Notes under the pieces: model-generated
The model's input: only the letters and a program-made list of their open reading frames with translations
Database searches by the model: none
What the model was told of the DNA's origin: nothing
Source of the DNA: an uncultured Eubacteriales bacterium
Lineage (GTDB): Bacteria; Bacillota; Clostridia; Peptostreptococcales; Anaerovoracaceae
Direction of reading: 5' to 3'
NCBI GenBank assembly: GCA_902798745.1
Contig: CADBXM010000001.1
Location: 164,471-228,470 of the forward strand
Length of the DNA stretch: 64,000 nucleotides
Shown here: positions 3,345-36,091 of the stretch, in pieces
Position numbering within the stretch: position 1 is the first letter of the stretch
How the letters are laid out: each line of letters opens with the position of its first letter
Translations under genes and position numbers: made by a program

Positions 3345-3349
3345 TAAGA

Positions 3350-4642
3350 ATGGGCAAAATCAGTTTAGCAACAATAGCGGGAATAGGGACAAAAGTCGTT
3401 TCGGCGGTCTCGATCGTGCTTGCCTCGACCATGATCGCTTACAGCGGCTTTGCGCTTTACGACACGGTCTACACCGACCGCACTGCTTTTACGTCCTCTG
3501 ATTTGAGCCAGTACCGCCCAACTGCAACTGAAGAAGAGCCGACCTTTGAGGAGATGATGACGATCAATTCGGATACTTGCGCCTGGGTGACCATGCTCGG
3601 CACACACATCGATTACCCGATAGTGCAGGGCAAGGACGATGTTGAGTACGCCAACAAGGATATTTATGGCAAAAGCAGCCTTACCGGATCGATCTATCTT
3701 ACAACGGTCAATAGTAACGAATTCACTGATTCGTTCAACCTCATATACGGTCACCACATGGATAACGGCGGCATGTTCGGCGATATAGAAAAGTATGAAA
3801 ACGACAGATACTTCTATGGCCATCAGGACGGCATACTGGTAACGACAAGAGGCATCTACGACATACATATCTTCGGAAGGCTCTCAGCTGATGCTTATGA
3901 CAGCAAAGTTTATCAGGCCGGCGATAGACCATCGTCGGATTTCCCTAATTACCTTTACTATCTTAAGTCGCTCGCAGTGCAGTGGGACCCTAAGACCGAC
4001 ATAGACGGGATCACAGCCAATATCCAGAAATATATAACCGCGCGTGACCGCAATATTGCTGAAAACGGAAAGTTTGTCTTTAACAAGATGCCTGATGAAG
4101 TGGTGAAGAACGGTATGCAACTGATCGCGTTCAGTACATGCGCCGATGCCACCACGAACGGCCGGCAGCTTCTCGTGGGGACTATGAAGTTCCGCACCGA
4201 GCCGCTACCTGAAGAATACCTGATAGGCGATCGTCCAATACCTCTTGCGGCGTGGGGCCACGGAGAGGCTGAGCATTGGTCTCTCCTTAATGCGATATGC
4301 GTCATCATGTCCCTTGCTGTTACCTTCCCGGGGAAGGCGATCAGAAAAAAATACCGCTATGTCACAGCGGATCTTAAAGCTAGACGTGCAGGCAAAGGCA
4401 AACTGGATATCAAAGACTTCAGCGATATAAAGCTGGTCAGTTTCCTCGGACAGGCACTGCTGTCGGTGTTCGCGCTCTTCTGGTTTATATGGACGCAAAA
4501 CCCGGCGAAGCCAATGGTGATAGTAGACAGATGGACTCTTGGGATGATCGCCGTGTATGTGGCTGTGTGGGTGATAGACGTCTACGTGATAAAGAACTAC
4601 AAAAAGAAAAAGCCTGATCAAATAATTGAACAGGCGTTATAA
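3350..4642 (+). CDS. srtB: Class B sortase with C-terminal three-helix membrane domain
   Basis: Transpeptidase expected to polymerise pilins or anchor the surface proteins encoded downstream. An N-terminal helix (about 10-38) is followed by a typical sortase B core with GTHIDYPIVQ, catalytic His135 in YGHHM, Cys264 in FSTC and Arg272 in NGRQ. After residue 308 there is an extra domain of about 120 aa with three hydrophobic segments and the motif FIWTQNPAKPMVIVDRWT. This tail is absent from canonical SrtB and resembles the C-terminus of the protein at 10768-11787. The gene follows sipA by 5 bp with only a weak ribosome site, suggesting translational coupling. It converges with the kinase gene. 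Confidence 0.9.
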   Translation: MGKISLATIAGIGTKVVSAVSIVLASTMIAYSGFALYDTVYTDRTAFTSSDLSQYRPTATEEEPTFEEMMTINSDTCAWVTMLGTHIDYPIVQGKDDVEYANKDIYGKSSLTGSIYLTTVNSNEFTDSFNLIYGHHMDNGGMFGDIEKYENDRYFYGHQDGILVTTRGIYDIHIFGRLSADAYDSKVYQAGDRPSSDFPNYLYYLKSLAVQWDPKTDIDGITANIQKYITARDRNIAENGKFVFNKMPDEVVKNGMQLIAFSTCADATTNGRQLLVGTMKFRTEPLPEEYLIGDRPIPLAAWGHGEAEHWSLLNAICVIMSLAVTFPGKAIRKKYRYVTADLKARRAGKGKLDIKDFSDIKLVSFLGQALLSVFALFWFIWTQNPAKPMVIVDRWTLGMIAVYVAVWVIDVYVIKNYKKKKPDQIIEQAL

Positions 4643-4658
4643 ATCATAATCAGAAGCA

Positions 4659-5933
4659 TCATTCTTCATCGGGGATATGAATGGTAACGACTGCGCCGCC
4701 ACCCTCGCGATCAGCGAGCTCAAGCTCGGCTCCGACAGCTTCCAGGCGTTCGCGAATATTCGAAAGCGCGATGCGGTTGCCATCTGTTTTCTCAGTGATG
4801 ACAGTAGCTCCAAATCCCGGACCGGTATCGGCAACGATAACATCGTAACCTGTATCGGTTTTTTCTGTGCGGATAGTTACCGTGATCGGATCGAGCTCCG
4901 GGTCGATACCGTGCTTCACGCAGTTCTCTACGAGCGGCTGCAGCGTCAATGGTGGAAGCTCAAAGTCTTTGTATGGAGTGTCATACTCAACAAATAGACT
5001 GTCCTCAAATCGCACCTGCTCTACAGCGAGATATGCCTTCGCGTGCTCCAGTTCCTCCTCGAACGGAATAGGATCTTCGCTCGCTATAGCGGTAAAGTTC
5101 TTTCTCAGATATTTTGAGAAGTCCAGTATTACTTTCTGAGCGCGTTTTGGATCCTCCTCGCAGAGGTAGTAAATGCTCATCATTGTGTTGTATACGAAAT
5201 GCGGACGCATCTGCAGTACTGTAAGGCTGGCCTGCTGATCGGCGATCTTGCGCTGCTGCCTCGCGGCCTGCTCTGTCTGATCGAGAAGAAGTATGATCAT
5301 GAGAAGACCGGTGGCGATAGTGACACCAAGTACAATAAAGTTTATGCCGTTATTTAACATCTGAAGCCCGACCGAGATGAGCGGGATCGCTATGTATGCG
5401 AGGAACGCGTTGAACTGTCTTCGTGTAAGCTTGTCGCGCCTGCGGAAGAGCGCAATGAACATCACCAGCATCATCAGCACAGGCGGTATCATAAGGACAG
5501 GGTAAAGCGGTCCGCGATGAAATACGTTATCCGTACTTACGTAGTAGATGGATTTGCTCATCTGAGCGTAGCCGAGCAACACAAAGAAACCGATCCATAT
5601 GATATCCACTATATACATGACAGGACTTCTTGGAGTCTCGCCACACCTTATCATCATGTACAGAGCCAGCAACGGCAGAAGTAAAGACGAGGAGAGTATC
5701 TCAAAGAACTCTGCGGTCCATGTGATGAGCCAGTTGCCAATGAACTGCTGAGAAGCCATCGACAGCATATTGGACCCCAGGAAGCAAGCGAGTACGATAA
5801 AAATGAGTATCAGAAACCTGCGGGTAGCTTTATCTGAGTATCTGCTCGCTATGGTCATCACAAGCCCGAACAGAACGATCATCAGGCCGGCGACCGGTAT
5901 TGAGAAATTTGCTACTGTCATCCAATCAAGCAT
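4659..5933 (-). CDS. LytS/YehU-type sensor histidine kinase with polytopic membrane sensor
   Basis: Histidine kinase of 424 aa. Residues 8-215 hold six to seven hydrophobic segments with no large outside domain. A short linker follows, then the His_kinase family core with the H-box LQMRPHFVYNTM (His245) and an ATPase domain with PLVENCVKHG (N box) and ADTGPGFG (G1 box). This is the LytS/AgrC-like class that normally pairs with a LytTR regulator. Here the partner is the HTH-receiver fusion whose stop codon is 4 bp before this start. I start at the ATG at 5933 (MLDWMTV); longer forms would overlap the regulator. The signal is unknown; a small peptide or membrane state is plausible. Confidence 0.87.
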   Translation of the reverse strand: MLDWMTVANFSIPVAGLMIVLFGLVMTIASRYSDKATRRFLILIFIVLACFLGSNMLSMASQQFIGNWLITWTAEFFEILSSSLLLPLLALYMMIRCGETPRSPVMYIVDIIWIGFFVLLGYAQMSKSIYYVSTDNVFHRGPLYPVLMIPPVLMMLVMFIALFRRRDKLTRRQFNAFLAYIAIPLISVGLQMLNNGINFIVLGVTIATGLLMIILLLDQTEQAARQQRKIADQQASLTVLQMRPHFVYNTMMSIYYLCEEDPKRAQKVILDFSKYLRKNFTAIASEDPIPFEEELEHAKAYLAVEQVRFEDSLFVEYDTPYKDFELPPLTLQPLVENCVKHGIDPELDPITVTIRTEKTDTGYDVIVADTGPGFGATVITEKTDGNRIALSNIRERLEAVGAELELADREGGGAVVTIHIPDEE

Positions 5934-5937
5934 TTGT

Positions 5938-6528
5938 TTATTTGAACACCAATTCCGGAACAGGGTAGCGCAGCTTCGACAGTTGTTTCTGAACACCTTC
6001 GATAGTAAGAGGCTTCATCAGGAAGCCGGACGCGCCTGTTTCCCATGCATCCAGTGAGTATGTGGTATATGCCGTTAGGAATATCACGTTGATGCGCGGA
6101 TTGATCGCCAGCAACTCACGGCAAAGGTCAAGCCCGCTCACGCGGCCCATCTCGATGTCGAGGAAAGCCAGCGGAACTTTATGCGTCTTAGCAAACTCTA
6201 TCGCTTCGGACGGCTTTGTAAAGCAGACGACTTCAGCCTGAGGTATAGCCTGTTCAAGTATAGGCCTGCCGCCTCTCAAAATGATGCGTTCGTTATCTAC
6301 CATCATCACAAAAGGCTTTTCCCCGAAGCTATCGTCAGAGCCCATAAGGATATTGACATCAACGCCGAGTGAGTCTGCGACCTTGCGTATCGTGACTGCG
6401 TCAGGCACGCGTCTTCCCGTCTCCCAACTGGCGATAGTAGAGCGATCCACAAACAAAAGGTCGGCAAGACGCTGCTGCGAAAGCCCTCTATCTGTTCTAA
6501 TCTTGTGCAGCATTTCTGCAAAAGTCAT
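5938..6528 (-). CDS. XRE-type HTH / receiver-domain fusion transcriptional regulator
   Basis: Protein of 196 aa. Residues 3-62 form a Cro/XRE helix-turn-helix (MLHKIRTDRGLSQQRLADLL, then STIASWETGRRVPD). Residues 72-190 form a response-regulator receiver domain with acidic Asp78, phospho-acceptor Asp124 (AFLDIEM), Thr152 and Lys172. There is no C-terminal LytTR or winged-helix output, so DNA binding must come from the N-terminal HTH, the reverse of normal response-regulator order. Its kinase is the next gene. AAAGGA lies 7 bases before the ATG. It is the obvious candidate to bind the GTGTC-N5-GACAC dyads at 2622, 6687, 10673 and 10695, which is inference from location. Confidence 0.88.
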   Translation of the reverse strand: MTFAEMLHKIRTDRGLSQQRLADLLFVDRSTIASWETGRRVPDAVTIRKVADSLGVDVNILMGSDDSFGEKPFVMMVDNERIILRGGRPILEQAIPQAEVVCFTKPSEAIEFAKTHKVPLAFLDIEMGRVSGLDLCRELLAINPRINVIFLTAYTTYSLDAWETGASGFLMKPLTIEGVQKQLSKLRYPVPELVFK

Positions 6529-6607
6529 GACGCGGTCCTTTCCTTTGTTCTTACAGACACCAACGATTCTGATAAATATGTATCAATTTTGAGCTTTTTT
6601 TCAATTA

Positions 6608-6636
6608 ATTGTAGCTCTTTTGTGTTACCATAACAA
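6608..6636 (-). promoter_or_regulatory. Promoter of the regulator-kinase operon
   Basis: On the minus strand, -35 TTGTTA (6636-6631), a 17-bp spacer and -10 TACAAT (6613-6608). The leader to the ATG at 6528 is about 70 bases. It diverges from the adhesin promoter. Confidence 0.55.
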
Positions 6637-6644
6637 GGGAATAG

Positions 6645-6662
6645 ATTGTGAACCCTCACAAT
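6645..6662. promoter_or_regulatory. Inverted repeat ATTGTGA-N4-TCACAAT between divergent promoters
   Basis: A perfect dyad with 7-bp arms and spacer ACCC. It lies 9 bp upstream of the -35 of the regulator-kinase promoter and 25 bp from operator copy 2. It differs from the GTGTC-type operator and could bind another regulator or serve autoregulation. Confidence 0.55.
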
Positions 6663-6685
6663 AGTTAACAATTTTATAGATATGC

Positions 6686-6702
6686 TGTGTCATAGCGACA
6701 CA
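6686..6702. promoter_or_regulatory. Operator copy 2, GTGTC-N5-GACAC, upstream of the adhesin gene
   Basis: TGTGTC-ATAGC-GACACA, core 6687-6701. Its centre (6694) is 37 bp before the -10 at 6731 and the core ends 6 bp before the -35 at 6708, identical to copy 1. Confidence 0.8.
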
Positions 6703-6707
6703 TAGTA

Positions 6708-6736
6708 TTGTTTGAGTTATTTCACAAGCCTATAAT
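6708..6736 (+). promoter_or_regulatory. Promoter of the beta-helix adhesin gene
   Basis: A very weak -35 TTGTTT (6708-6713), a 17-bp spacer and a perfect -10 TATAAT (6731-6736). The start is expected near 6743 with a leader of about 36 bases holding the site AGAGGGG. Confidence 0.65.
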
Positions 6737-6778
6737 TCAATCGTAGGATGGAATAAGAGGGGAAAGACCCACAAAACA

Positions 6779-9700
6779 ATGAAACTGACACAGAGACTGC
6801 TCGTATTGTTAATAACGGTAACGATGATGCTGTCAGGTTCCTTTGCACAGGCGTTTGCCACAGAGGAGGCCGCAGACGGCGGTTCCGTTGTTGTGTCCGA
6901 AACACCAGGCTCTGAAGATATAGAAGAATCAAAAGAAGACCCAAAAGAAGAAGCAAAAGAAGAAGCCAAGGAAGAAGAGAATGCCGAAGAGCCTAAGGCA
7001 GAAGAAGCTAAAGAAGCTGCTCCTGAGAAAGAAGAGCCAAAGGCTGAGTCTGAATCCAAGGCAAGCAATGAGTCCAAGGCAGAGCCTGAAAAGGAAGCCA
7101 CGGCAAAAGATGACAGTAAAGACGCTGAGAAATTATCTGCCGGAACACTTACTTACAAGTGCGACGAATACACAGTAACTCTCGATTACAGCAAGAAGGC
7201 GGAGATCCCTGAGGGAACAAAGCTCGAAGTCCGCGAGGTCCTTGCTGACAGCGATAGCAAAAAAGAGCAGAAAGAATATAAAGAGTATTACGACAAGTCT
7301 CTCGAGCAACTCCGCAACGAAAAGGGCGGTGACTCGATAGCAAAGCTGAAGTTTGCCAGGTTCTACGATATCGCTCTCATGAGCAAAGGCAAAGAGATCG
7401 AGCCATCGGGTGATGTTAGCGTTAAAATCACGTTCAATGAAGACGCGAGAGAAACAGTCGGAGAGAAGGACGAAGCTGAAAAGAGCCTCAGAATCGTTCG
7501 CCTGACAGAAAACGAAAAGACCGGCAAGCTTGAAGTTGCCTCTATAGATAAGAAAGACACAGAGCTGTCGCTCGATAAAAAGGAGCTTTCTGAGGCTTCT
7601 TTCACAACAGACAGCTTCTCAGTATACGGCATTGTATACACGGTAGACTTCGAGTCTGACAATAAACAGACCGGAAAGACAGAGACGGTCGTCGAGGCAA
7701 AGGGCAAGACTTTCCGTATGGAGGCAGCCTATGACAACGTTGCCGGCATACCTGCGGAGGGAGTGCGCCTTTATGCAAAAGAGTTAAAAGGCGATGATCC
7801 TGATGTCATCACCTTTGACATCAAGATCGTCTCCGTGGAGGATGAGAACGTCGTTTATCAGCCTGCCGAGGGCCACAATGTGGCTCTGACTGTGGTCGTA
7901 CTGGACGACAAGGCCGATACGGACGAGGATACCGCCTCGGTACTGCATGTGTGTGAAGACGGCACGAAGGAGACACTGACCGCTGATCTTGAAACAACAG
8001 ACGAGGGCTATGTCTATTCCTTTGAGACGGAGAGTTTCTCCACATTTACATTTCATAGAAACGGCAGTAGTCTCGAGCGTTTCATTACGACGGTAAAGAC
8101 AGGCCGTTTTGGTGGGAGCCAAACTGAGCTTTCCGGTAGTGCAGAGATATCTAATAACAACAATATGGGCTGGCTAAGCTTTGAAGAAGTGATTGATAAG
8201 TGGAATCCGGCCTACAGCAATGCAGGTTCCAATGGACGATATTCCGTCATTAAAGCCAATGACAGTGGCGGCAACACCAAGCAGTCACTGTGTGCAGTCG
8301 GGTTTTTCGAGGGCAGTATTTCACCTGTCTCGCTCGGACGCATTGCCACCTCTGGAAATGTAAACGGTTCCGCGACGAGTTATGATCTTCAGATAGAACT
8401 GAACGACAACTCCCTGCCGGTGCGGATCACGGCGAATGGCGCTACGGCGGAGACTATATTCGTGCCTTCAGGCAGCGCGACGAGCTTTACGGCAGAGTCC
8501 ATTGCAGCAGAACTCGGATACGACACGGATGGTATGATGGTTACCGGCAAGGTCAATACCGTGTCTGCGGACTCAGTCTCCCGTGCGAAGCTCACTACGA
8601 CAGATATTCCGACAGTCAGCAGTGGGACGTGGTGGACCAGGCTTCTGGCGGGCGAAACGTTTGATGACTTTGGTGCAGGATCCGACTTGATTGTGCTAAA
8701 CTGGGTAAATTACACTGCTACGAACGTATCCTATCCGGCAGCGTATAAGTGGACCTATGATAATGGCGGCACACAGACCGTAATCGGCGATACGCTGTAT
8801 GAGATCGAGATGGTCCCTGCTGTGGCGCAAGTCAGCAATGACGGTGGGACGACCTGGAAGAAATTCGCAAGCCTCATCACGGGCGAATATGATGGAGTGA
8901 CACTGGAAGGGGCATTTAACTATGCGAATTCCCTGAGCGGAGACGTGATCGTTGAAATGCTTTACGACACTCATGAGCGCTACACTCTGAGCAGCGGCTT
9001 CAACTTTAACAATTCAGATATCACAAGCCTTAAACTCAAAGGCGTTGGTGAAGAAACTGATACAACCCAAAAGACTACGCTCGTAAAGGATCAGACAACT
9101 ACGTCGATGATTACAACTACTGGCATCGATACAGTTGAGTTTAACAAGATCATTTTCAACGGCAATGGAGCGATGTCCGTAGTCGGTAATGGCGGTGCCG
9201 TGAAAACAGATGCAAGTAGCCTGAACGTAAGCTACTGTGAATTTAATAATTGTCAGGCCGGTAAAGCTAACTTAACTCCGGGTCAGGGCGGAGGCATTTG
9301 CCACGAGAATACTGCCGGGGAAGCAAGTATTACCAACTGCGTCTTCAATCAGTGCAAAGCCAATGGAAAAGATGATGCCGCAGGCGGAGGTGGTGGATTC
9401 TACACTGACGCTCAGAAATTGACTGTTACAGACTGTACGTTTACAGCTTGCTCAACAGCATCCAGACAGGGCGCCGGCTTCTTCCATAGACGTTTGAAGA
9501 CTGATCCGGGCAATTCCGAAACCAGCGTTAAAGACTGCAACTTTAAGGACTGCACCTCAGTATGGTGCGGTGCCGGAATGGAATCAGATGCCTGGGATGT
9601 CACACTTGATAACTGCACGTTCACTAACTGCGCAGCATCAAAGGGCGGTGCCTTTAACAACTATGCAGATGGACAGGACTCGTCAGGCAACAACACTTCA

Positions 9701-10663
9701 CTCAATGTGAAAGACTGTAAGTTCATCAATTGCACGGGCACAGACAACGGCGGAGCTATCCGCACCACGGCGCTTCATGTGAATTTAACGGATTCTTCGT
9801 TTGAAGGATGCAGCTCAAACGTTAACGGCGGAGCGGTAGCATGTACGAGCAATAAAACCATCGCAATTATTACCGACTGCACGTTCACTGACTGCCATGC
9901 TGATAACGGCAATGGGGGCGCGATCGTTTCTGCCGGCACCAACGCTACGGCAACGACGCTTAGCGGGAATACTATAGAAGATTGCTCGGCAAAGAATGGT
10001 GGAGCAGTACAGTCCGGCAATCTGCTAATGAGCAGCGGGACCATAAAAAACTGCACTGCATCAGCGAAGGGCGGTGCAATCAATTGCTCTCAGAAAATCA
10101 TAATGACCGGCGGTACCGTGACCGGATGTACTACGGGCGGAGAAAGCGCGGCTCTGGATGCTGCCACAGGTGGATCGGGACTCACTTTTTCAGGAGACGT
10201 TAAGGTAGAGGGCAACGTAGGATCAAGTGGCGAAGCCCGCGATGTATACATAGGCACGGATACAGATCGACACATACTTATAGACAGTGCAGGTCTTGGA
10301 GATAACGCGAGCATAGGAGTCTATGTCGCGGATGCAAATTCGGCATTTGATAAACACGGCAAACCTGGTCAGATGTTTGCTCATACCGGAAGTGTACAGG
10401 CTTCGACAATGAACAACCTCGATAAACTGTTCAGCGACAGGCTGGATAACGGAGAGATGCACGGTACGGCTGCTATATCCGGAGAGAACTATCGATATAG
10501 GATCATGTGGCCTGGCAAACCGCCTGTTGCGCCTACCGGATATACCAGCAAATACTTACCATTCATACTGATCCTCATCGGGGGAGTAGCACTGGTAGTT
10601 CTGAAAAAAGTAACAGATCGCAGGAGAAGATCTGAAGACGATACATTTGAAACTGAGGAATGA
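6779..10663 (+). CDS. Large sortase-anchored adhesin with right-handed beta-helix repeats
   Basis: Secreted surface protein of 1294 aa. Residues 1-27 are a signal peptide ending AQAFA. Residues about 38-120 are a Glu/Lys/Ala-rich, probably helical or disordered stalk. Two beta-rich domains follow (about 120-420, each ending near FSVYGIV or FSTFTFH), then a domain of unknown type (about 430-800). Residues about 805-1125 hold roughly ten turns of a Pmp/pectate-lyase-like beta-helix with the motif C-x-F-x-x-C followed by GGA or GGG. The C-terminus has VAPTGY, a hydrophobic helix and RRRR, a sorting signal like streptococcal xVPTG. Its own promoter carries operator copy 2. It is probably the tip adhesin or a wall-anchored partner of the pilus. 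Confidence 0.85.
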   Translation: MKLTQRLLVLLITVTMMLSGSFAQAFATEEAADGGSVVVSETPGSEDIEESKEDPKEEAKEEAKEEENAEEPKAEEAKEAAPEKEEPKAESESKASNESKAEPEKEATAKDDSKDAEKLSAGTLTYKCDEYTVTLDYSKKAEIPEGTKLEVREVLADSDSKKEQKEYKEYYDKSLEQLRNEKGGDSIAKLKFARFYDIALMSKGKEIEPSGDVSVKITFNEDARETVGEKDEAEKSLRIVRLTENEKTGKLEVASIDKKDTELSLDKKELSEASFTTDSFSVYGIVYTVDFESDNKQTGKTETVVEAKGKTFRMEAAYDNVAGIPAEGVRLYAKELKGDDPDVITFDIKIVSVEDENVVYQPAEGHNVALTVVVLDDKADTDEDTASVLHVCEDGTKETLTADLETTDEGYVYSFETESFSTFTFHRNGSSLERFITTVKTGRFGGSQTELSGSAEISNNNNMGWLSFEEVIDKWNPAYSNAGSNGRYSVIKANDSGGNTKQSLCAVGFFEGSISPVSLGRIATSGNVNGSATSYDLQIELNDNSLPVRITANGATAETIFVPSGSATSFTAESIAAELGYDTDGMMVTGKVNTVSADSVSRAKLTTTDIPTVSSGTWWTRLLAGETFDDFGAGSDLIVLNWVNYTATNVSYPAAYKWTYDNGGTQTVIGDTLYEIEMVPAVAQVSNDGGTTWKKFASLITGEYDGVTLEGAFNYANSLSGDVIVEMLYDTHERYTLSSGFNFNNSDITSLKLKGVGEETDTTQKTTLVKDQTTTSMITTTGIDTVEFNKIIFNGNGAMSVVGNGGAVKTDASSLNVSYCEFNNCQAGKANLTPGQGGGICHENTAGEASITNCVFNQCKANGKDDAAGGGGGFYTDAQKLTVTDCTFTACSTASRQGAGFFHRRLKTDPGNSETSVKDCNFKDCTSVWCGAGMESDAWDVTLDNCTFTNCAASKGGAFNNYADGQDSSGNNTSLNVKDCKFINCTGTDNGGAIRTTALHVNLTDSSFEGCSSNVNGGAVACTSNKTIAIITDCTFTDCHADNGNGGAIVSAGTNATATTLSGNTIEDCSAKNGGAVQSGNLLMSSGTIKNCTASAKGGAINCSQKIIMTGGTVTGCTTGGESAALDAATGGSGLTFSGDVKVEGNVGSSGEARDVYIGTDTDRHILIDSAGLGDNASIGVYVADANSAFDKHGKPGQMFAHTGSVQASTMNNLDKLFSDRLDNGEMHGTAAISGENYRYRIMWPGKPPVAPTGYTSKYLPFILILIGGVALVVLKKVTDRRRRSEDDTFETEE

Positions 10664-10672
10664 TCGATAATC

Positions 10673-10687
10673 GTGTCAGGCTGACAC
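10673..10687. promoter_or_regulatory. Operator copy 3 (distal), GTGTC-N5-GACAC
   Basis: GTGTC-AGGCT-GACAC, with perfect 7-bp arms around one base. Its centre (10680) lies 22 bp, two helical turns, upstream of copy 4, so a second dimer could bind on the same DNA face. It begins 9 bp after the adhesin stop codon. Confidence 0.75.
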
Positions 10688-10693
10688 ATCCGC

Positions 10694-10710
10694 TGTGTCA
10701 CTGCGACACA
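10694..10710. promoter_or_regulatory. Operator copy 4 (proximal), GTGTC-N5-GACAC
   Basis: TGTGTC-ACTGC-GACACA, core 10695-10709. Its centre (10702) is 37 bp before the -10 at 10739 and the core ends 6 bp before the -35 at 10716, the same geometry as copies 1 and 2. Confidence 0.8.
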
Positions 10711-10715
10711 ACAAA

Positions 10716-10744
10716 TTGAACGTTAAAATACAGACAGATAAAAT
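10716..10744 (+). promoter_or_regulatory. Promoter of the pilin pair
   Basis: -35 TTGAAC (10716-10721), a 17-bp spacer and -10 TAAAAT (10739-10744). The start should fall near 10751, leaving a short leader with AAGGGGAAAG before the ATG at 10768. Confidence 0.7.
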
Positions 10745-10767
10745 ACAGTTGCAGCAAGGGGAAAGCA

Positions 10768-11787
10768 ATGCGAATAATAAGGCATACCCTTAACAACAGA
10801 ATATGGGGGGCGGTACTGATAGTTCTATCGATACTGTTAGTCGGGCTAATACCAATACGGGCCGTTTACGCGGCATCCGAAGAGGTGAGCATCCCTTACC
10901 GCCAAGAGTGGACCAACAGATCGGGAGAAACTGTAGACAACAGCTTCGAATACAGGCTCACGGCCGTTGATGGAGCGCCTCTTCCGGATGAAGCGAGCGG
11001 AGGCTACTACTCGTTCGTGCTGACAGGCAACGCCAGCGGAAGCATAAAGCTTCACTTCCCGTTTGCTAAGCCGGGGTATTACAACTACCTTGTGAGGGCG
11101 TATATACCTGATAAAGAGCAGTATTACAGCTACGATGATGAGACCTATGATTTGATGATCATGGTGGTCAACTCGGCCGATGGTCTCGAAATCGGAGCAA
11201 TGACCATACAGGACGAGACCTTAGCCAAATACTCCGAGTTGCCATTCAGTATGGCATACACCAAAGCCCCGCCTAACAATGGTGATGATGACAATGGTGG
11301 TGGAAACAGGAATGGCAATGGAGGCGGGGCAGCAGCCCCTGGTACTGTACCGGCAGGCACTACGGTGATCGACGATACGGCACCGCCTGAGACGATCCCT
11401 GATCAAGGCACACCACAAGGTATACTGCCTGACCCGGAAGACTGGGCACTGCTCAACCTGATCCTTCTGATCCTGACCGTGATCGTAGCTCTTGCAGACG
11501 GGATCTTGTACTTCAGAAGCCCTAGAGACAAGTACGGCGACGAGTACGAGTACGAGGATGATGAAGACGAAGAAGTCAGGCGGCACGGCCTACTCAGGAT
11601 AGCGGCCTTCATAACAGCGATCGCATCATTCATACTCTTCATCCTGACAGAGGACATTACCGATCCGATGATCTGGGTGGACGAGTACACGATATGGATG
11701 CTGATACTGTTCATAGCAGCGGTACTCCTGTCGATGCTCTCTAAGAAAGAATACGAAGAAGAGGAGAGCGAACAGGGTGTCACATGA
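10768..11787 (+). CDS. FctA-domain base pilin with three-helix membrane anchor
   Basis: Membrane-anchored surface protein of 339 aa. A signal peptide (about 1-36, ending AVYAA) is followed by one Spy0128/FctA-type pilin isopeptide domain (about 40-150): IPYRQEW, FEYRLTAVDGAPLP, YSFVLTGNASG and PGYYNYLVRAYIP. A Gly/Asn/Asp and Pro-rich linker runs to about 220. The C-terminus (about 224-330) has three hydrophobic segments split by an acidic DEYEYEDDEDEE stretch and no LPxTG-like motif. The tail carries DWALLNL and FILTEDITDPMIWVDEYT, matching the tail of the class B sortase. I infer a pilus base held in the membrane by this domain. It is followed by the major pilin 71 bp downstream without a terminator. 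Confidence 0.82.
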   Translation: MRIIRHTLNNRIWGAVLIVLSILLVGLIPIRAVYAASEEVSIPYRQEWTNRSGETVDNSFEYRLTAVDGAPLPDEASGGYYSFVLTGNASGSIKLHFPFAKPGYYNYLVRAYIPDKEQYYSYDDETYDLMIMVVNSADGLEIGAMTIQDETLAKYSELPFSMAYTKAPPNNGDDDNGGGNRNGNGGGAAAPGTVPAGTTVIDDTAPPETIPDQGTPQGILPDPEDWALLNLILLILTVIVALADGILYFRSPRDKYGDEYEYEDDEDEEVRRHGLLRIAAFITAIASFILFILTEDITDPMIWVDEYTIWMLILFIAAVLLSMLSKKEYEEEESEQGVT

Positions 11788-11858
11788 GGAAGTCAATAAA
11801 CAGAGTTTTTGAAAAACGTTAACTAATCGAAAGATATAAATAGAAAAGGAGAACAACC

Positions 11859-13343
11859 ATGAAAACCAGAAAGTACGGCAAGATCATGACACTGTTCCTT
11901 GCGCTGGCAATGATAATGGCGATGAGCATCAGCTCATTCGCTGCAAGCGGAAGCGGGTCAGACCTTGGGGAAGACAATTCGATCAATCCAAATGATACGG
12001 GCATCATCTCGAACGGGGGCGTTCGCGAGAACGGAGAAGATGCCGGAGGAACAAATACAGGTAAGTATGGTGTATACCAGGCCGTCGGCAATAAGGTAAC
12101 ACTCTACAAGGATATCGTCATCTTCAACACAAGAACTGACAATACCGATGTATATCTGCCAAATATCAAGTACGAGTATACGGTGTCGGCAGTTACAGCG
12201 GCTGAAAACAAGTATATAACTGATGAGTACGGCCTGAAGGGTTCGATCAACAGCGGAGTACCCGCTGCTGCACCATCCGGTAAAGCAAGTGTTGAATACA
12301 ATAATACTACAGCTACAGGCATCAAGCAGGAAGGCACAGGCGACGCTGTAGTCAAAGTCACAACCAACACAAATGGAGTTGCCGCAAGAGGAAGCTTTGA
12401 CCTGACATTTGACCCATCGAAGTTCACAAAGCCTGGCATTTTCCGTTACAAGGTAACAGAGTCTCTGGCAAGCGGCTTTTCGAGAGCAACTGCAGGCGTG
12501 ACTAACGACACATACAACGCAGACAGATATCTGGATGTTTATGTCCAGAACAAGACAGGCGGCGGCTACGAGATCTACGGTTTTGTTCTCTTTGAGGCGA
12601 CTGACAAGGATACAGAGTTTACTGCAGATCCTGGTACAGCTATCACAGCAAAGACAAACGGATTCGTATCCAACAAGTATGATAAGCAGGGCACCACATA
12701 CAGCAAGACTGAAAAGGGCGTAGACATCTACGAGACATCCAATGTCAAGATCAGCAAGACCATCACCGGCGCTATGGCTGACAAGAACAACAAGTTCCCG
12801 TTCAAGGCTACAATTGCAAACACCGCGATCACTAAGGATCCTATCATCTCATTCAAGGTAGTTGGTGACAACGGAAGCCTCACCACTACAGGAGATAATC
12901 CGACAGCTACAATGACAGGCGGTACTGCTACTATCGGAAGTGCTACAGCAACAGTTGCACAGGGAATGGAACTCAATGACGCAGATTACGTATACATCTA
13001 CGGCGTTCCTGGAAAGAATCAGGCTACTAACGTAGTTGCTGAAGAGTACAACAACACCACAGAGGTATACAAGGTATCCGCTAAGTATGACAACACTGAC
13101 CTTACAGTCGTTGCAAGCACTACAGGTACAGTCGCTGACATGAATGCCGCGGCTACAGCCAAGAACCAGACTGCTCAGAATCTCGACATCACAAAGGCAG
13201 AGGATGAGCTCGCTGTAACAAACAACCTCGCAGCTATCTCACCAACAAACGTTGTAATGAGATACGCTCCATATCTCTTCATCCTCGGCGGAGCGATCAT
13301 GCTGCTGGTAATAAGCAGAAGACGCAAAGCTGAGCAGGAGTAA
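11859..13343 (+). CDS. Major pilin, FctA/Spy0128-like
   Basis: Secreted pilin of 494 aa. Signal peptide about 1-29 (MKTRKYGKIMTLFLALAMIM, cleavage after SSFAA). The mature part is rich in Thr, Ala, Asn and Lys and contains VYLPNIKYEYTVSAV and GIFRYKVTESL, as in Spy0128/FctA isopeptide pilins, followed by a second beta domain from about residue 290 (NVKISKTITGAM, FPFKATIAN). The C-terminus is SPTN-VVMRYAPYLFILGG, a hydrophobic helix and RRRK, closely resembling the VPTG-type sorting signal of streptococcal pilins with Asn in place of Gly. An excellent ribosome site (AAAAGGAGAAC) implies high expression. A strong terminator follows at 13391. Confidence 0.87.
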   Translation: MKTRKYGKIMTLFLALAMIMAMSISSFAASGSGSDLGEDNSINPNDTGIISNGGVRENGEDAGGTNTGKYGVYQAVGNKVTLYKDIVIFNTRTDNTDVYLPNIKYEYTVSAVTAAENKYITDEYGLKGSINSGVPAAAPSGKASVEYNNTTATGIKQEGTGDAVVKVTTNTNGVAARGSFDLTFDPSKFTKPGIFRYKVTESLASGFSRATAGVTNDTYNADRYLDVYVQNKTGGGYEIYGFVLFEATDKDTEFTADPGTAITAKTNGFVSNKYDKQGTTYSKTEKGVDIYETSNVKISKTITGAMADKNNKFPFKATIANTAITKDPIISFKVVGDNGSLTTTGDNPTATMTGGTATIGSATATVAQGMELNDADYVYIYGVPGKNQATNVVAEEYNNTTEVYKVSAKYDNTDLTVVASTTGTVADMNAAATAKNQTAQNLDITKAEDELAVTNNLAAISPTNVVMRYAPYLFILGGAIMLLVISRRRKAEQE

Positions 13344-29199: not shown

Positions 29200-29742
29200 A
29201 TGGCAAAATGGGTATGCAGCGTATGCGGTTATGTTCATGAAGGCGACACACCACCTGAAAAGTGCCCTCAGTGCGGAGTTCCTGCTGAGAAGTTCAACAA
29301 GCAGGAAGGCGAGATGAGCTGGGCAGCAGAGCACGTAGTAGGCGTTGCTCAAGGCGTTGATCCTGAGATCATCGAAGGACTCAGAGCAAACTTCCAGGGT
29401 GAGTGCTCCGAGGTAGGTATGTATCTTGCTATGGCAAGAGTTGCTCACAGAGAGGGTTATCCTGAGATCGGACTCTACTGGGAGAAGGCTGCTTATGAAG
29501 AAGCAGAGCATGCCGCGAAGTTCGCAGAGCTCCTCGGCGAGGTAGTGACAGACAGCACAAAGAAGAATCTCGAGATGAGAGTAGAAGCTGAGAATGGCGC
29601 TACAGCCGGCAAGACAGAACTTGCAAAGAAGGCCAAAGAGCTCGGACTCGACGCTATCCACGATACAGTTCACGAAATGGCTCGTGACGAGGCAAGACAC
29701 GGCAAGGCTCTGAAGGGACTGCTCGACAGGTACTTCGGCTAA
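29200..29742 (+). CDS. Reverse rubrerythrin
   Basis: Peroxide-reducing protein of 180 aa for anaerobes. Unlike classical rubrerythrin, the rubredoxin-type FeS4 domain is at the N-terminus ([29 protein letters not shown]) and the diiron four-helix domain follows ([45 protein letters not shown]). It reduces H2O2 with electrons from NAD(P)H via a reductase. The 75-base leader has a small hairpin (29142-29157) and a -10 TAATAT near 29119 with the string ATGTGTTAATAT also seen at the tRNA promoter. Confidence 0.95.
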
Positions 29743-31025: not shown

Positions 31026-31069
31026 TAAAATATATACGGTAACACATAGTATTGCGGACGGAGATCAAT

Positions 31070-32611
31070 ATGCTTATGAAAAAGAGGGTCATATCGATAT
31101 TGGTGGTAATGGCGATGGTGCTGACATTAAGCGTCACGCCTTCATTTGCCGTTTCCAAGAAAAATGCGCCAAAGCTTTCAGCATCAAAAGTCTCGCTGGA
31201 TATAGGCGTAAAGAAGACCATCAAGCTCAAAAACGCAAAGAGCAAGGTGAAATGGAGCAGCAGTAATGAGAAAGTCGCGGTCGTTACAAAAAAGCGTGGC
31301 AAACGCGGCTCGATCATCACGATCAAAACGAAGAAGCACGGAACGTGCAAGATCGTCGCTGAATCCGGCGGTAAGAAGTACAAGTGTACTGTTAAGGTGA
31401 GCAAGGTCGTGATCAAGCCTCTCAGCTCCTCATCTGTGGAAAAAAGCGGCAAGTACAAATACAAAAAGAAGCTCGGGACTTCGGGCGGAAAACAATTCAG
31501 AGTTGCTGTTTCCGATTTTTCCTTCGACCTGCTCGGCAAGCTTGCAGACAAAAGTAATGGCTCTGACAGACAGAATATCCTGATCTCTCCTGCATCCATT
31601 CTCACAGCTATGGTCATAACAGAGAACGGAGCGCGTGGTAAAACCCTTACCGAGATGCAGAATACTCTGTCGGGCGGCATAGACTCCAAGACCTTCAATG
31701 GGAACATTGCGGGCCTTAATAGCAGGCTTTGCGGTTCAAAGAGCATGATCTATCAGCAGGCAAATTCGCTCTGGATCAGGAAGAAGTCAGTAAAAGTCAA
31801 GAAATCATTCCTCAAGAAGAATAAGGAATACCATAATGCAAAGGTGTACTACGCTCCTTTCAATTCTAAGACCGTAAAGGACATAAACACCTGGGTGTTC
31901 AACAACAGCCGTAATATGATCGACCGTATAATCAACAGACTTGACACGGCAGATCGCATGGTGATCGTAAACACTACGGCCTTTGAGGGCAAATGGGCCG
32001 AACCTTTCAGGGATCCTCAAAAGGAAAAGTTTACGTCTGCTGACGGCAGTGTAAGTAGAGTCAACATGCTCGCAGCTTCCGGCTATCATCGTTACATAAA
32101 GCTGAACGGAGGTAAGGGATTCGCCAAATACTATATCGGTGATGACAAAAATCATTCCATTGCTTTTGTCGGTATCCTTCCACCGGAGGGGACTGATGTA
32201 AATGATTTTGCAAAAGGGATAAGCGGATCTGACTGGATCAATGCATGGAACAGCAGCAAAAGCGAGAATCTGGTCATCAAGGTCCCGGAATTCAAATATG
32301 ATTATTCTGCATCGCTTGGTAATCCTCTGGCTGCTATGGGCATGAAAACGGCCTTTACACCGGGCGCGGATTTCTCGAGGATGACTTCCGGTCCGGATAG
32401 ATTACAGATAGACGATGTGCTTCACAAGACTCATATAGAACTTGATAAGAACGGCACCAAAGCTGCAGCTGCTACGGCTGTCGTTATGAAGGCCTCCAGT
32501 ATCATGATGGATGAGCCGATCGAAGTATACCTCAACAGACCATTCGTATACGCGTTGGTCGATGCAAAGACAGGGATACCGCTTTTCGCAGGCATCATAT
32601 ACAGGCCATAG
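31070..32611 (+). CDS. Secreted serpin with N-terminal Ig-like (Big2-type) domain
   Basis: Secreted protease inhibitor of 513 aa. A signal peptide (about 1-29, ending PSFAV) is followed by a Lys-rich bacterial Ig-like domain (about 35-110: KLSASKVSLDIGVKKTIKLK, VKWSSSNEKVAVV) and a complete serpin fold from about 140: NILISPASILTAMVITENGARG, ANSLWIRKK, VNTTAFEGKWAEPF and the C-terminal NRPFVYALVDAKTGIPLFAG. The reactive loop has an inhibitory hinge, NGTKAAAATAVVMKASSIMM; counting from the hinge puts P1-P1' near Ser-Ser or Ala-Ser. It probably protects against host or competitor serine proteases. The start is the ATG at 31070 after ACGGAG. Confidence 0.93.
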   Translation: MLMKKRVISILVVMAMVLTLSVTPSFAVSKKNAPKLSASKVSLDIGVKKTIKLKNAKSKVKWSSSNEKVAVVTKKRGKRGSIITIKTKKHGTCKIVAESGGKKYKCTVKVSKVVIKPLSSSSVEKSGKYKYKKKLGTSGGKQFRVAVSDFSFDLLGKLADKSNGSDRQNILISPASILTAMVITENGARGKTLTEMQNTLSGGIDSKTFNGNIAGLNSRLCGSKSMIYQQANSLWIRKKSVKVKKSFLKKNKEYHNAKVYYAPFNSKTVKDINTWVFNNSRNMIDRIINRLDTADRMVIVNTTAFEGKWAEPFRDPQKEKFTSADGSVSRVNMLAASGYHRYIKLNGGKGFAKYYIGDDKNHSIAFVGILPPEGTDVNDFAKGISGSDWINAWNSSKSENLVIKVPEFKYDYSASLGNPLAAMGMKTAFTPGADFSRMTSGPDRLQIDDVLHKTHIELDKNGTKAAAATAVVMKASSIMMDEPIEVYLNRPFVYALVDAKTGIPLFAGIIYRP

Positions 32612-32676: not shown

Positions 32677-32724
32677 CAACAATATATTGACATGAATAAA
32701 GCACTTGACTACAATATATAGTGT
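32677..32724 (+). promoter_or_regulatory. nrdD promoter overlapped by two NrdR boxes
   Basis: Consensus -35 TTGACA (32687-32692), 17-bp spacer and -10 TACAAT (32710-32715). An NrdR-like box (CAACAATATATTGACA, 32677-32692) covers the -35, and a second, better one (CTACAATATATAGTGT, 32709-32724) covers the -10. Their 32-bp offset (three helical turns) is typical of tandem NrdR boxes, so NrdR-dATP should shut this promoter. NrdR itself is not in the window. Confidence 0.85.
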
Positions 32725-32828: not shown

Positions 32829-35105
32829 ATGAACACTATCATCAAAAGAGACGGCAAGGAAGTAGCCTTTGACGAATCCAAGATCTTCAACGCCATCTAC
32901 GCTGCCAACAAGGCCGTAGACGGAGAGAAGATGACGAGCATCGACTTTACTTATCTTACAAAGAAAGTCGTAGAGCAGCTCGAAGGCGACACCTGCACAG
33001 TAGAGCAGGTACAGGATATCGTTGAGCAGATGCTCATCAAGTACGACTGGGAGAAGACAGCCAAGGCATATATCCTCTATCGTGCTGAGCATGCAAAGAT
33101 CAGAGAGGCAGAGTCCGATCTGATGAACATCTACAACGAGCTCACATATTCATACTCCAAGGATGCGGATATAAAGAGAGAAAATGCCAACATCGACGGA
33201 GATACATCGATGGGCACGATGCTCAAATACGGCTCTGAAGGTGCTAAGTACTTCGTGGATAATTATGTACTGCCTAAAGATATCGCGAAGGCGCATATCA
33301 ACGGCGATATCCACATCCACGACAAGGATTTCTACATGCTCACAGAGACCTGCTGCCAGATCGACCTCATAAAGCTGTTCAAGGACGGATTCTGCACAGG
33401 CCACGGCTACCTCAGAGAGCCACAGTCGATCATGAGTTATGCGTCGCTCGCCTGCATCGCCATTCAGGCAAACCAGAACGAGATGCACGGCGGACAGTCG
33501 GTACCTAACTTCGACTACTCCATGGCTTCGGGCGTAGCACGCACATATATAAAGGAATTCTTCTCCGCTCTCACAGAGATAATCGCAGCCAGACTCGACT
33601 GCACTTATGATGTTGCTAAGGAACTGTCCGACAAAATCAAGTCAGAGGCAGTTGCTCCTACACTTTCCACAAACGGTAAGTACGGAGAGGAACTCGAGAA
33701 ATGGTATGAAGCTCACGGCGAAGGTACGGGATTCACAAGAGAACAGATCGTACGCTGCGGTGAACAGGCCGCGGAAGCTGCTTGGGCAAGGACGGATAAG
33801 ATGACATATCAGGCCATGGAGGCCCTTATCCACAACCTCAACACCATGAACTCAAGAGCAGGCGCTCAGGTTCCGTTCAGCTCTGTAAACTACGGAACAG
33901 ACACATCGCCTGAAGGTCGCATGGTCATCAAGAACCTGCTCCTCGCGACAGAGGCGGGTCTCGGCAACGGTGAGACACCTATCTTCCCGGTACAGATCTT
34001 CAAGGTCAAGGAAGGCGTTAACTTCAACGAGGGAGACCCTAACTACGATCTCTTCAAGCTGGCAGTAAGATGCTCGGCACTGAGGCTGTTCCCTAACTTC
34101 AGCTTCCTGGACGCTCCTTTCAACAAGAAATTCTATAAAGAGGGTGACTACAATTCAGAGGTGGCATACATGGGATGCCGCACAAGAGTTATGGCCAACA
34201 ACTACGACCCGACAAAGGCTGTGGTATGCGGCAGAGGCAACCTTTCGTTCACATCGATCAACCTTCCTAGGATCGGTATCGAGGCGAACCGCGACTTCGA
34301 AGTGTTCTACAAGAAACTCGACGCGATGATGGAACTGGTATCCAGACAGCTTCTCCACAGATTCAGAATACAGTGCGGCAAGAAGGGCCGTAACTATCCG
34401 TTCCTGATGGGACAGGGCATCTGGATCGACTCAGACGATATTGGGCCTGATGACAGCGTAGCTGAGATCCTCAAGAACGGTACTCTCTCGATCGGCTTTA
34501 TCGGACTTGCGGAGACGATGAAAGCTCTTACGGGTAAACATCATGGTGAGGACGAGACTGTAAGAAAGCAGGCGTTTGAAGTCATAAAGCACATGAGAGA
34601 ATTCTGCGACAGAAAGAGCGCTGAGACAGGCCTCAACTTCACGCTTCTTGCTACTCCGGCTGAAGGACTATCGGGACGTTTTGTCAAGATCGACAGAGAA
34701 AAATACGGCAAGTTGCCTGGGATCACTGACAGGGATTACTACACCAACTCGTTCCATATCCCTGTATATTATCCGATCGGCGCGTTTGAGAAGATCGCGA
34801 TCGAGGCGCCTTATCACAATCTGACTAACGCCGGGCATATCAGTTATGTTGAGCTCGACGGAGATACGGCAAAGAACCCTGAAGCGTTCGAGACTATCAT
34901 CAGATACATGAAGGAAGCCGGGATCGGTTACGGCTCGGTCAATCACCCGGTAGACAGAGACCCTGTCTGCGGATACACAGGTGTTATCGACGACGTATGT
35001 CCACGCTGCGGAAGACGCGAAGGTGAGCCTGTTTCGATCGAGAGACTCAACGAGCTTCGCATGAAGTTCCCGAGCGTGCCGGTACCTTGCGACTGCATAC
35101 ACTAG
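32829..35105 (+). CDS. nrdD: Anaerobic ribonucleoside-triphosphate reductase, catalytic subunit lacking the glycyl-radical domain
   Basis: Class III ribonucleotide reductase large chain of 758 aa, reducing NTPs to dNTPs without oxygen. Residues 1-95 form an ATP-cone (IIKRDGKEVAFDESKIFNAI) for allosteric control, followed by the ten-stranded barrel (GDIHIHDKDFYM, NLNTMNSRAGAQVPFSS, MGCRTRVMAN) and a zinc region (C714, C724, C727 in DVCPRCGR). Normally the zinc region leads straight into RRITGYLVG with the radical Gly. Here the chain diverges after VSIERLNEL and stops at VPCDCIH with no such motif. The missing piece is encoded separately at 35272. The extra CxC tail is unusual. Confidence 0.92.
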   Translation: MNTIIKRDGKEVAFDESKIFNAIYAANKAVDGEKMTSIDFTYLTKKVVEQLEGDTCTVEQVQDIVEQMLIKYDWEKTAKAYILYRAEHAKIREAESDLMNIYNELTYSYSKDADIKRENANIDGDTSMGTMLKYGSEGAKYFVDNYVLPKDIAKAHINGDIHIHDKDFYMLTETCCQIDLIKLFKDGFCTGHGYLREPQSIMSYASLACIAIQANQNEMHGGQSVPNFDYSMASGVARTYIKEFFSALTEIIAARLDCTYDVAKELSDKIKSEAVAPTLSTNGKYGEELEKWYEAHGEGTGFTREQIVRCGEQAAEAAWARTDKMTYQAMEALIHNLNTMNSRAGAQVPFSSVNYGTDTSPEGRMVIKNLLLATEAGLGNGETPIFPVQIFKVKEGVNFNEGDPNYDLFKLAVRCSALRLFPNFSFLDAPFNKKFYKEGDYNSEVAYMGCRTRVMANNYDPTKAVVCGRGNLSFTSINLPRIGIEANRDFEVFYKKLDAMMELVSRQLLHRFRIQCGKKGRNYPFLMGQGIWIDSDDIGPDDSVAEILKNGTLSIGFIGLAETMKALTGKHHGEDETVRKQAFEVIKHMREFCDRKSAETGLNFTLLATPAEGLSGRFVKIDREKYGKLPGITDRDYYTNSFHIPVYYPIGAFEKIAIEAPYHNLTNAGHISYVELDGDTAKNPEAFETIIRYMKEAGIGYGSVNHPVDRDPVCGYTGVIDDVCPRCGRREGEPVSIERLNELRMKFPSVPVPCDCIH

Positions 35106-35137
35106 TTTTCCACACGTTTTCCACAGGCTTATCCACA
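35106..35137 (+). promoter_or_regulatory. Three phased DnaA-box-like repeats after nrdD
   Basis: TTTTCCACA (35106-35114), TTTTCCACA (35117-35125) and TTATCCACA (35129-35137), all on the plus strand and spaced 11 and 12 bp, about one helical turn each. The third is a perfect DnaA box. They begin at the first base after the nrdD stop codon. DnaA may couple dNTP supply to replication, or the array may titrate DnaA (inference). Confidence 0.6.
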
Positions 35138-35271
35138 ATATGATGTGGTCTGATGGAAATAAAACAACAATATACATTAATAATGCTTTACAAATGCGTC
35201 CGTGAAGATTAAAATAATCTCGCACGAAAAAATAAGGATAGATTGTAATAGGACCGTATGGAGGTATTGAT

Positions 35272-35439
35272 ATGAATAATAAGGTAGTTAAGAATGTAAA
35301 TGGCCAGGTTGGTGAAGGCGTAGGCTTCGAGAGGATCAGAAGGATCACAGGTTATCTCGTAGGTACACTCGACAGATTCAACAACGGCAAGAGAGCCGAG
35401 GTTGAAGATCGTGTTAAGCACGGAATGGCTAGAAACTAA
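35272..35439 (+). CDS. Stand-alone glycyl-radical subunit of class III ribonucleotide reductase
   Basis: A 55-aa protein beginning MNNKVVKNVNGQ whose residues 20-50 match the C-terminal glycyl-radical segment of NrdD: ERIRRITGYLVGTLDRFNNG, then KRAEVEDRVKH. Gly27 in RRITGYL is the predicted radical residue activated by NrdG. The ATG has an excellent ribosome site (GGAGGT, 35260-35265) and there are stop codons between it and nrdD, so it is translated as its own protein. It must dock on the NrdD barrel next to the active-site Cys, much as the spare-part protein YfiD does for pyruvate formate-lyase. It lies between nrdD and nrdG in the same direction. Confidence 0.87.
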   Translation: MNNKVVKNVNGQVGEGVGFERIRRITGYLVGTLDRFNNGKRAEVEDRVKHGMARN

Positions 35440-35462
35440 TACGACCGCTTAACGGAAAATTG

Positions 35463-35498
35463 AATGACCGCCTCGGCTTGGATCCTTGGGCGGTCATT
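35463..35498 (+). terminator. Hairpin between the glycyl-radical gene and nrdG, weak terminator or attenuator
   Basis: A 10-bp stem AATGACCGCC / GGCGGTCATT with a 16-base loop. Only a poor T stretch follows, so partial read-through into nrdG is likely, which would keep the activase below its substrates. Confidence 0.6.
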
Positions 35499-35530
35499 TC
35501 TATTGGACAGGAAAAAATACTGATATAGAA

Positions 35531-36091
35531 ATGTCTGCAAGCGATACGAAGAAAAACATCAGAATGTGCGGGATAGAGCCCGAGTCGATAGTCGACGGGC
35601 CTGGGTTCAGGTTCGTGCTCTTTGTGCAGGGCTGCCCGCATCATTGCCACGGTTGCCACAACCCTGAGTCATGGTCCTTCGATGGAGGATACGATATTTC
35701 CGTGGATGAAGTATTTGCGCAGATAAAGGAAAGGAAGGGCCTCCGCGGCGTTACGTTCAGCGGAGGAGAGCCATTTGAGCAGGTGCCGGCGCTTCTTGAA
35801 CTCGCGAAACTTGTAAAAGGCGAGGGGCTCACGCTTATGAGCTACACGGGATATACGCTTGATGAGCTCGAAAATAGACACGATCCGGAGACGGACGAGC
35901 TGCTCGGTATGCTGGATATACTTGTCGACGGAAGATATGACGAGAAGCTAAGGAACCTGACACTTATCTATTGCGGGTCAGAGAACCAACGCGTCATAGA
36001 TATGAGAAAGACGAGGAAGGCGAGGGAGAGCGGTGACCACGGAATTGTGATACCGTATAAATCGGACTTCGATATAGATATACAGATCTGA
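35531..36091 (+). CDS. nrdG: Anaerobic ribonucleotide reductase activating protein
   Basis: Radical SAM activase of 186 aa that installs the glycyl radical using SAM and a 4Fe-4S cluster. The cluster motif is CPHHCHGC, preceded by SIVDGPGFRFVLFVQG and followed by HNPESW. FSGGEPF and TGYTLDELE are further SAM-binding elements. The frame extends back through the upstream hairpin; I start at the ATG at 35531 (MSASDTKK). The ribosome site is poor, consistent with low expression. Its substrate here is the Gly27 of the separate 55-aa subunit. Confidence 0.92.
   Translation: MSASDTKKNIRMCGIEPESIVDGPGFRFVLFVQGCPHHCHGCHNPESWSFDGGYDISVDEVFAQIKERKGLRGVTFSGGEPFEQVPALLELAKLVKGEGLTLMSYTGYTLDELENRHDPETDELLGMLDILVDGRYDEKLRNLTLIYCGSENQRVIDMRKTRKARESGDHGIVIPYKSDFDIDIQI

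Follow-up and report, generated by a model that had tools for sequence, protein, structure and literature searches.

How can an anaerobic (class III) ribonucleotide reductase (RNR) work if its catalytic chain stops before the radical glycine? This question is raised by a gene cluster in a 64,000-nucleotide stretch of DNA from an uncultured Eubacteriales bacterium of the Anaerovoracaceae (assembly GCA_902798745.1, contig CADBXM010000001.1, positions 164,471 to 228,470 of the forward strand), which was analysed as a whole and is called the window here. Three genes follow one another on its + strand: nrdD (32829..35105), encoding a 758-residue class III RNR core without a glycyl-radical loop; an open reading frame (ORF) for a 55-residue protein (35272..35439); and, beside them, nrdG (35486..36091), encoding the radical S-adenosylmethionine activase of NrdD (TIGR02491 NrdG, 146.6 bits, above the cut-off of 126.1), the likely start of which is the ATG near 35531 rather than the ORF call at 35486. 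The initial annotation, a reading of the letters by themselves, had proposed these ORFs as a split enzyme with a detachable radical domain; all three were found at these coordinates, and the small gene does have a ribosome-binding site of its own, GGAGG at 35260..35264 (+), ahead of its ATG at 35272. On the basis of computed gene structure, conservation, co-occurrence and repeated origin, and of a genome in which no other RNR was found, we conclude that the window very probably encodes a two-chain class III RNR.

The two chains divide a single enzyme profile between them. Window NrdD matched the Pfam families NRDD (PF13597, 4.3e-188) and ATP-cone (PF03477, 9e-19), and the NCBIfam model PRK07111 at 1052.6 bits (cut-off 764). 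Its closest solved relative is Prevotella copri PcNrdD (PDB 8P23; PMC11226230), an ordinary NrdD with which the core shares the ATP-cone, barrel, cysteine loop and zinc region. The alignment runs up to the zinc region; the barrel cysteine loop is present (YMGCRTR aligned with TMGCRTR of 8p23), and an Asp, shared by the fetched full-length NrdDs of the window's family, stands against the first zinc Cys of 8p23 (RDPVC versus RCLDC), with a CxC in the window tail. The radical domain of 8P23 is the C-terminus of the same chain, whereas that of the window is a separate protein: the NRDD match in window NrdD covers 1-531 of 562 positions and the radical glycine motif is not in that chain, while the 55-residue protein matched NRDD 533-562 (3.1e-8, 33.2 bits, cut-off 26.2). 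The chains are therefore complementary almost to the residue, and the small protein holds the segment missing from NrdD, including RRITGYLVG with the radical glycine Gly27 (codon 35350-35352). The claim that the small ORF encodes exactly this segment was thus borne out, with the motif spelled as given here.

Further comparisons characterized the small protein. A profile built from separate radical-domain proteins matched the radical loop of the 8p23 chain (1.7e-11), and the radical motif is as conserved in separate copies as in attached ones. The gene is kept in congeners and is under purifying selection among three of them (nonsynonymous divergence, dN, 0.08-0.14 versus synonymous divergence, dS, 0.70-1.31). 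When the 55-residue protein and three related proteins of ~92 residues were searched, NRDD alone passed in Pfam and NrdD models alone led in NCBIfam; no Gly_radical or GrcA model appeared among the Pfam and NCBIfam hits to E 1.

The initial annotation had proposed a search for glycine-less NrdDs with a small ORF next door, and such pairs were found. A truncated nrdD followed by a radical-domain gene of 54-60 residues is present in two congeners (G135 and G082) and in another genus (G049 and G119); nrdG follows the pair in G135, G049 and G119; in G082 the contig runs out beyond the small gene. G082 also has a second, 57-residue radical-domain gene (L025 7302-7475) with no nrdD within the fetched stretch. 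Among 148 genomes of the window's family, a search with the 55-residue protein gave matches in 75, many of them C-termini of full-length NrdD, and PF13597 matched 137. A separate radical-domain gene is present in all nine genomes (9/9) whose nrdD is a complete ORF with a match that stops short of the glycine; the profile match ends at 531 in the window genome (G000), G082, G135, G049 and G119, and at 539 in G083, G136, G077 and G005. Two genomes were left out of this truncated set and of the tree described below, G118 for a run of N inside nrdD (L047) and G100 for a contig end (L048). In the four genomes ending at 539, the NrdD C-termini are FERIPRL (G083), HERIQRLDIR (G136), GFERIERILP (G077) and SEHIKRMIPGEAANAN (G005), nrdG comes directly after nrdD, and the glycine motif lies on another contig in a longer type of gene. 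NrdD stops just short of the glycine in G083, G136 and G077, where the sole detected motif is the one on the different contig; G005 has an additional full-length NrdD of a different type.

The same arrangement extends beyond the family. In a phylum sample of 86 genomes including that of the window, 71 had a match, and the NrdD match ended at 531-540 in six (G000, G151, G198, G214, G228 and G176), all of which (6/6) have a separate match to 530-562; weak or two-part matches (G165, G182, G186, G195, G203, G204, G210, G212, G221 and extra G197 rows) were not counted as truncated. Some of the two-part matches lie inside open frames of 1042-1209 residues (G182:C4, G204:C110 and G212:C43), as an intein would give. 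In G228, the NrdD of which looks like a different subclass, a 45-residue radical-domain ORF lies past an nrdG-like gene (L305 1246-1383, - strand). A second family, f39 (the family of G464), was taken to be Selenomonadaceae because the coordinates and scores of G612 equal those of the L170 genome (Megamonas, Selenomonadaceae). Here 58 of 61 genomes matched, the NrdD match ended at 529-552 in 54, and a separate match was present in 54/54; the C-termini of all 54, read directly in 51 and through L215, L217 and L170 in three, stop without the glycine motif. Three genomes (G608, G625 and G644) have only a full-length NrdD, motif included, and none (0/3) has a separate match; G291 has one truncated and one full copy, and G618, the nrdD of which is cut by a contig end, was set aside.

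The close spacing and the order of the two window ORFs might suggest a single gene, either interrupted by an error of sequencing or assembly or read as one through frameshifting or readthrough. The chance of this is negligible: the reading frames differ and 166 bp separate the ORFs, assemblies from other species, genera and families show the same split, and the pieces lie on separate contigs in many genomes and ~430 kb apart on one contig in G346. The frame error that the initial annotation had named as its own possible undoing was rejected on the same conservation. In five loci (L085, L086, L087, L089 and L094), the radical-domain gene stands directly before nrdG and the truncated nrdD is on another contig.

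In the window genome, which is 93% complete, PF13597 found just the two pieces and no second full-length NrdD, and the class I/II barrel PF02867 had no match, though 11/14 control genomes matched it; another full-length NrdD doing the work, the second way in which the proposal might have failed, was thus not found. Among 32 split genomes tested, PF02867 was absent from 19; two of these (G005 and G462) have a second full or nearly full NrdD, and in the other 17, two of which are single contigs (G395 and G346), the split NrdD is the only RNR found. These data bear on the view that the truncated NrdD needs no glycyl radical for its activity, or that its gene is dead, and that the small ORF is a relic. 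In favour of this view, the NrdD tails past the zinc region vary, but the co-occurrence of the two genes (54/54, 6/6 and 9/9), the purifying selection on the small gene and the 17 genomes with no other RNR make this view very improbable. The radical domain as a detachable subunit, as first proposed, is well supported by the conserved split and by the finding of no other RNR in the genome.

In the two-chain enzyme that we propose, chain 1 would be the NrdD core, supplying the ATP-cone, the catalytic barrel with its cysteine and the zinc region, and chain 2 the 55-residue protein, supplying Gly27 of RRITGYLVG and a C-terminal tail. Chain 2 may dock in the barrel at the site of the covalent radical domain of ordinary NrdD; NrdG would generate the glycyl radical in trans on the docked chain, and the radical would then move from chain 2 to the barrel cysteine for catalysis. 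In the short form, the GExVxxExL tail of NrdD may contact the small chain. A role of the small protein in recovery from oxygen damage is plausible.

The annotation was right that NrdD lacks the radical motif, but not that it ends just after its zinc region, as residues 730-758 hold an apparent degenerate start of a radical domain: in a local alignment to the window 55-residue protein, GEPVSIERLNEL (35022..35057, +) resembles GEGVGFERIRRI, a likeness scored as high by 3/500 shuffles. Two other NrdD tails (L220 and L221) align over the entire radical domain (0/500 shuffles as high), yet without the glycine motif, and in the remaining short-type NrdDs, L216 excepted, 1 to 10 of 500 shuffles scored as high. 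A tail motif, composed after inspection of the tails, was found in 9/10 short-type NrdDs versus 0/12 others. The short-type split probably arose when the coding region of the radical domain was duplicated and the copy on NrdD then decayed. A tree of 77 NrdD cores (C-terminus removed, 22 truncated) gave 10 changes between fused and split states, 9-10 in bootstraps and at least eight forced; a first tree of 79 rows had given 11 changes, again with at least eight forced. Before tree building, errors in the labels of L062, L204, L207, L208 and L218 were corrected by eye, and L062 and L218 were excluded from the second for their long branches. The tree gives events and not frequency, because its sample is enriched for genomes with separate domains; likewise, the wider set of separate-domain genomes was mostly picked for having one, and no frequencies are taken from it.

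A separate radical domain is not confined to genomes with a truncated NrdD. At least 31 genomes of the window's family, by row count among the 148 searched, have a full-length NrdD together with a separate short ORF carrying the motif, and Ruminococcus flavefaciens likewise has both. Ten fetched ORFs (L028, L030, L032-L036 and L040-L042) encode proteins of 92-97 residues, counted from the likely start, in which ~48 residues at the N-terminus form a conserved part. The AlphaFold model of this N-terminal domain is beta-alpha-beta-beta with a predicted local distance difference test (pLDDT) score of about 80; a Foldseek search with it returned nothing significant (best E 0.97), and Pfam found nothing consistent in the ~92-residue form beyond NRDD. 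Beside a full-length NrdD, this version looks like a spare part; in some lineages, the attached domain would then have been lost, leaving the separate one obligatory.

Separate radical domains also occur in other anaerobic bacteria and in virus contigs. A scan of genome contigs gave at least 594 relatives, and in the best 80 of these the domain is in ORFs of 331 residues or less (under 200 in 78/80); in two cases (L156 and L170), the fetched stretch also contains nrdD. The best 80 include R. flavefaciens, Sporobacter termitidis, Gordonibacter pamelaeae and Adlercreutzia agrestimuris. Of 270 loci in virus contigs, the best 80 (L223-L302) comprise 73 radical-domain ORFs under 200 residues and six in full-length NrdDs. 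From these 80, 49 virus records were chosen, leaving out the loci whose NrdD is full-length and most of those on short records; the domain was found in 48, of which four also have an NrdD core, all ending at 538-541, and 44 the domain alone, in records that may be fragments or hold host DNA. The neighbours of the small gene include a tail-protein gene in L238 and, in L290, genes for tail fibre and integrase. The L252 record looked partly cellular.

Regulatory sites were scored against the NrdR-box consensus ACACWATATATWGTGT. Sites of at least 13/16 within 300 bp upstream were found for 30/118 separate radical-domain ORFs versus 14/719 control ORFs (Fisher 2e-17). In the window, CTACAATATATAGTGT (32709..32724, +), upstream of nrdD, scores 14/16. 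In the spacer that separates nrdD from the small gene, the DnaA-box-like TTATCCACA overlaps the NrdR-box-like CCACAATATGATGTGG (35129..35148, +); the latter, a weak site, scores 12/16, which 50/719 control ORFs also reach, and the corresponding spacer of G135 has a site differing from it at one base. Repeats like TTATCCACA occur in this spacer (window 35105-35148; L023 7010-7184), with two perfect copies in G135 and none in G082.

Two functional alternatives concern the role of the separate domain. One is that, in genomes with a full-length NrdD, it acts as a regulator or competitor, displacing the radical domain attached to that chain. The NrdR-like sites upstream of many copies, and the possibility that the small genes in virus records change host deoxynucleoside triphosphate (dNTP) supply, would fit such a role; we nevertheless consider it improbable, because the radical motif is as conserved in separate copies as in attached ones, and because in other genomes separate copies are the only source of the glycine found. 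The other, for which we see a chance somewhat below even, is that the main role is repair: like YfiD in the case of pyruvate formate-lyase, the small protein would take the place of radical domains cleaved by oxygen, with the obligate split a later elaboration. It gains from the coexistence of full-length NrdD and a separate copy in at least 31 genomes of the window's family, from split cores that stop close to the end that NrdD would have after oxygen cleavage at its glycine, and from the suggestion by Andorfer et al. 2021 (PMC8683613) that spare parts may exist for other glycyl-radical enzymes. It is weakened by the window and the split f39 genomes, which have no attached domain to replace (apart from G291, with its full copy), and by the NrdR-like sites, which suggest dNTP rather than oxygen control. 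The parallel with YfiD drawn in the initial annotation fits the relatives with both a full-length NrdD and a separate copy better than it fits the window, where the small protein looks obligate and has no Gly_radical match.

Several observations weigh against a two-chain enzyme of this kind. The separate matches of G151 and G198, which belong to one genus, are below the Pfam cut-off (21.9 bits); profile A1 also detects both. The tail likeness is weak in 1/10 short-type NrdDs (L216, 80/500 shuffles), and G102 has a separate radical domain, yet its only full NrdD is unlike the window type. Because most of the genomes are incomplete assemblies, the split NrdD may not be the only RNR in some of them, and because PF02867 matches G049 and G119 only weakly, a divergent RNR could escape elsewhere. 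None of the short-type rows, the window included (0/15), has an NrdR-like site of 13 or more, and the NrdR signal therefore comes from the longer type. Finally, the AlphaFold model of the separate ~92-residue protein is of low confidence in its radical part, which is expected, though no proof, if that part folds on the core.

A broader model seems to us reasonably probable: class III RNR may widely be an obligate two-chain enzyme with a dissociable radical subunit of ~45-105 residues. The split would have arisen repeatedly, as the radical domain was duplicated and its attached copy lost, in some lineages by way of a spare-part stage. The spare part, which phages carry without the core, may serve to maintain or restore the dNTP synthesis of the host in infection.

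Split RNRs are known in another class, and a split class II enzyme (NrdJab) was rejected as the identity of the window pair on the lack of a PF02867 match in the window genome. The class II RNR NrdJ is B12-dependent and uses no glycyl radical. NrdJa/NrdJb of Pseudomonas aeruginosa (PMC4520616) is an RNR in two polypeptides from one operon, both needed, as proposed here; a difference is that both of its pieces are larger, at 734 and 229 residues. Small glycyl-radical proteins found in cells and phages also serve as spare parts of pyruvate formate-lyase: YfiD/GrcA of Escherichia coli and Y06I of phage T4 (PMC8683613). They complete, in trans, a barrel that has been cut at its glycine, and their N-terminal half aids binding; according to that paper, spare-part proteins are validated only for pyruvate formate-lyase, though others may exist. 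Unlike YfiD/GrcA and Y06I, the window protein would serve another enzyme, matches NRDD and not Gly_radical, looks obligate and has no extra N-terminal domain. Aminoacyl radical enzymes (PMC11528403) are related to glycyl-radical enzymes and also lack the canonical glycine in their chain, but they substitute Ala, Ser or Thr in its place, and only glycine-bearing class III RNRs were reported in that search. Beyond these parallels, YfiD/Y06I for another enzyme and the split class II RNR, no description of a split NrdD or of an NrdD spare part was found in the literature searched, of which some sources were available in part and which did not cover preprints and many subscription papers.

These genes offer a large natural family of spare-part candidates for a different, essential enzyme, and in some genomes no source of the radical glycine was found other than the separate part. 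The truncated cores are natural mimics of oxygen-cleaved NrdD, in which radical transfer across a non-covalent interface is open to study, and the pair is a simple target for how anaerobes keep DNA synthesis going after oxygen. Annotation can overlook the radical subunit of an essential enzyme owing to its small size.

Other genes of the window were read from its sequence or translation. A rubrerythrin-like protein (29200-29742) is a possible sign of oxygen exposure, and a serpin-like protein with an N-terminal immunoglobulin-like (Big2-like) region (31052-32611) is encoded just upstream of nrdD. Further upstream, genes for signal peptidase, sortase and large surface proteins (2769-13343) probably form a pilus-type cluster.

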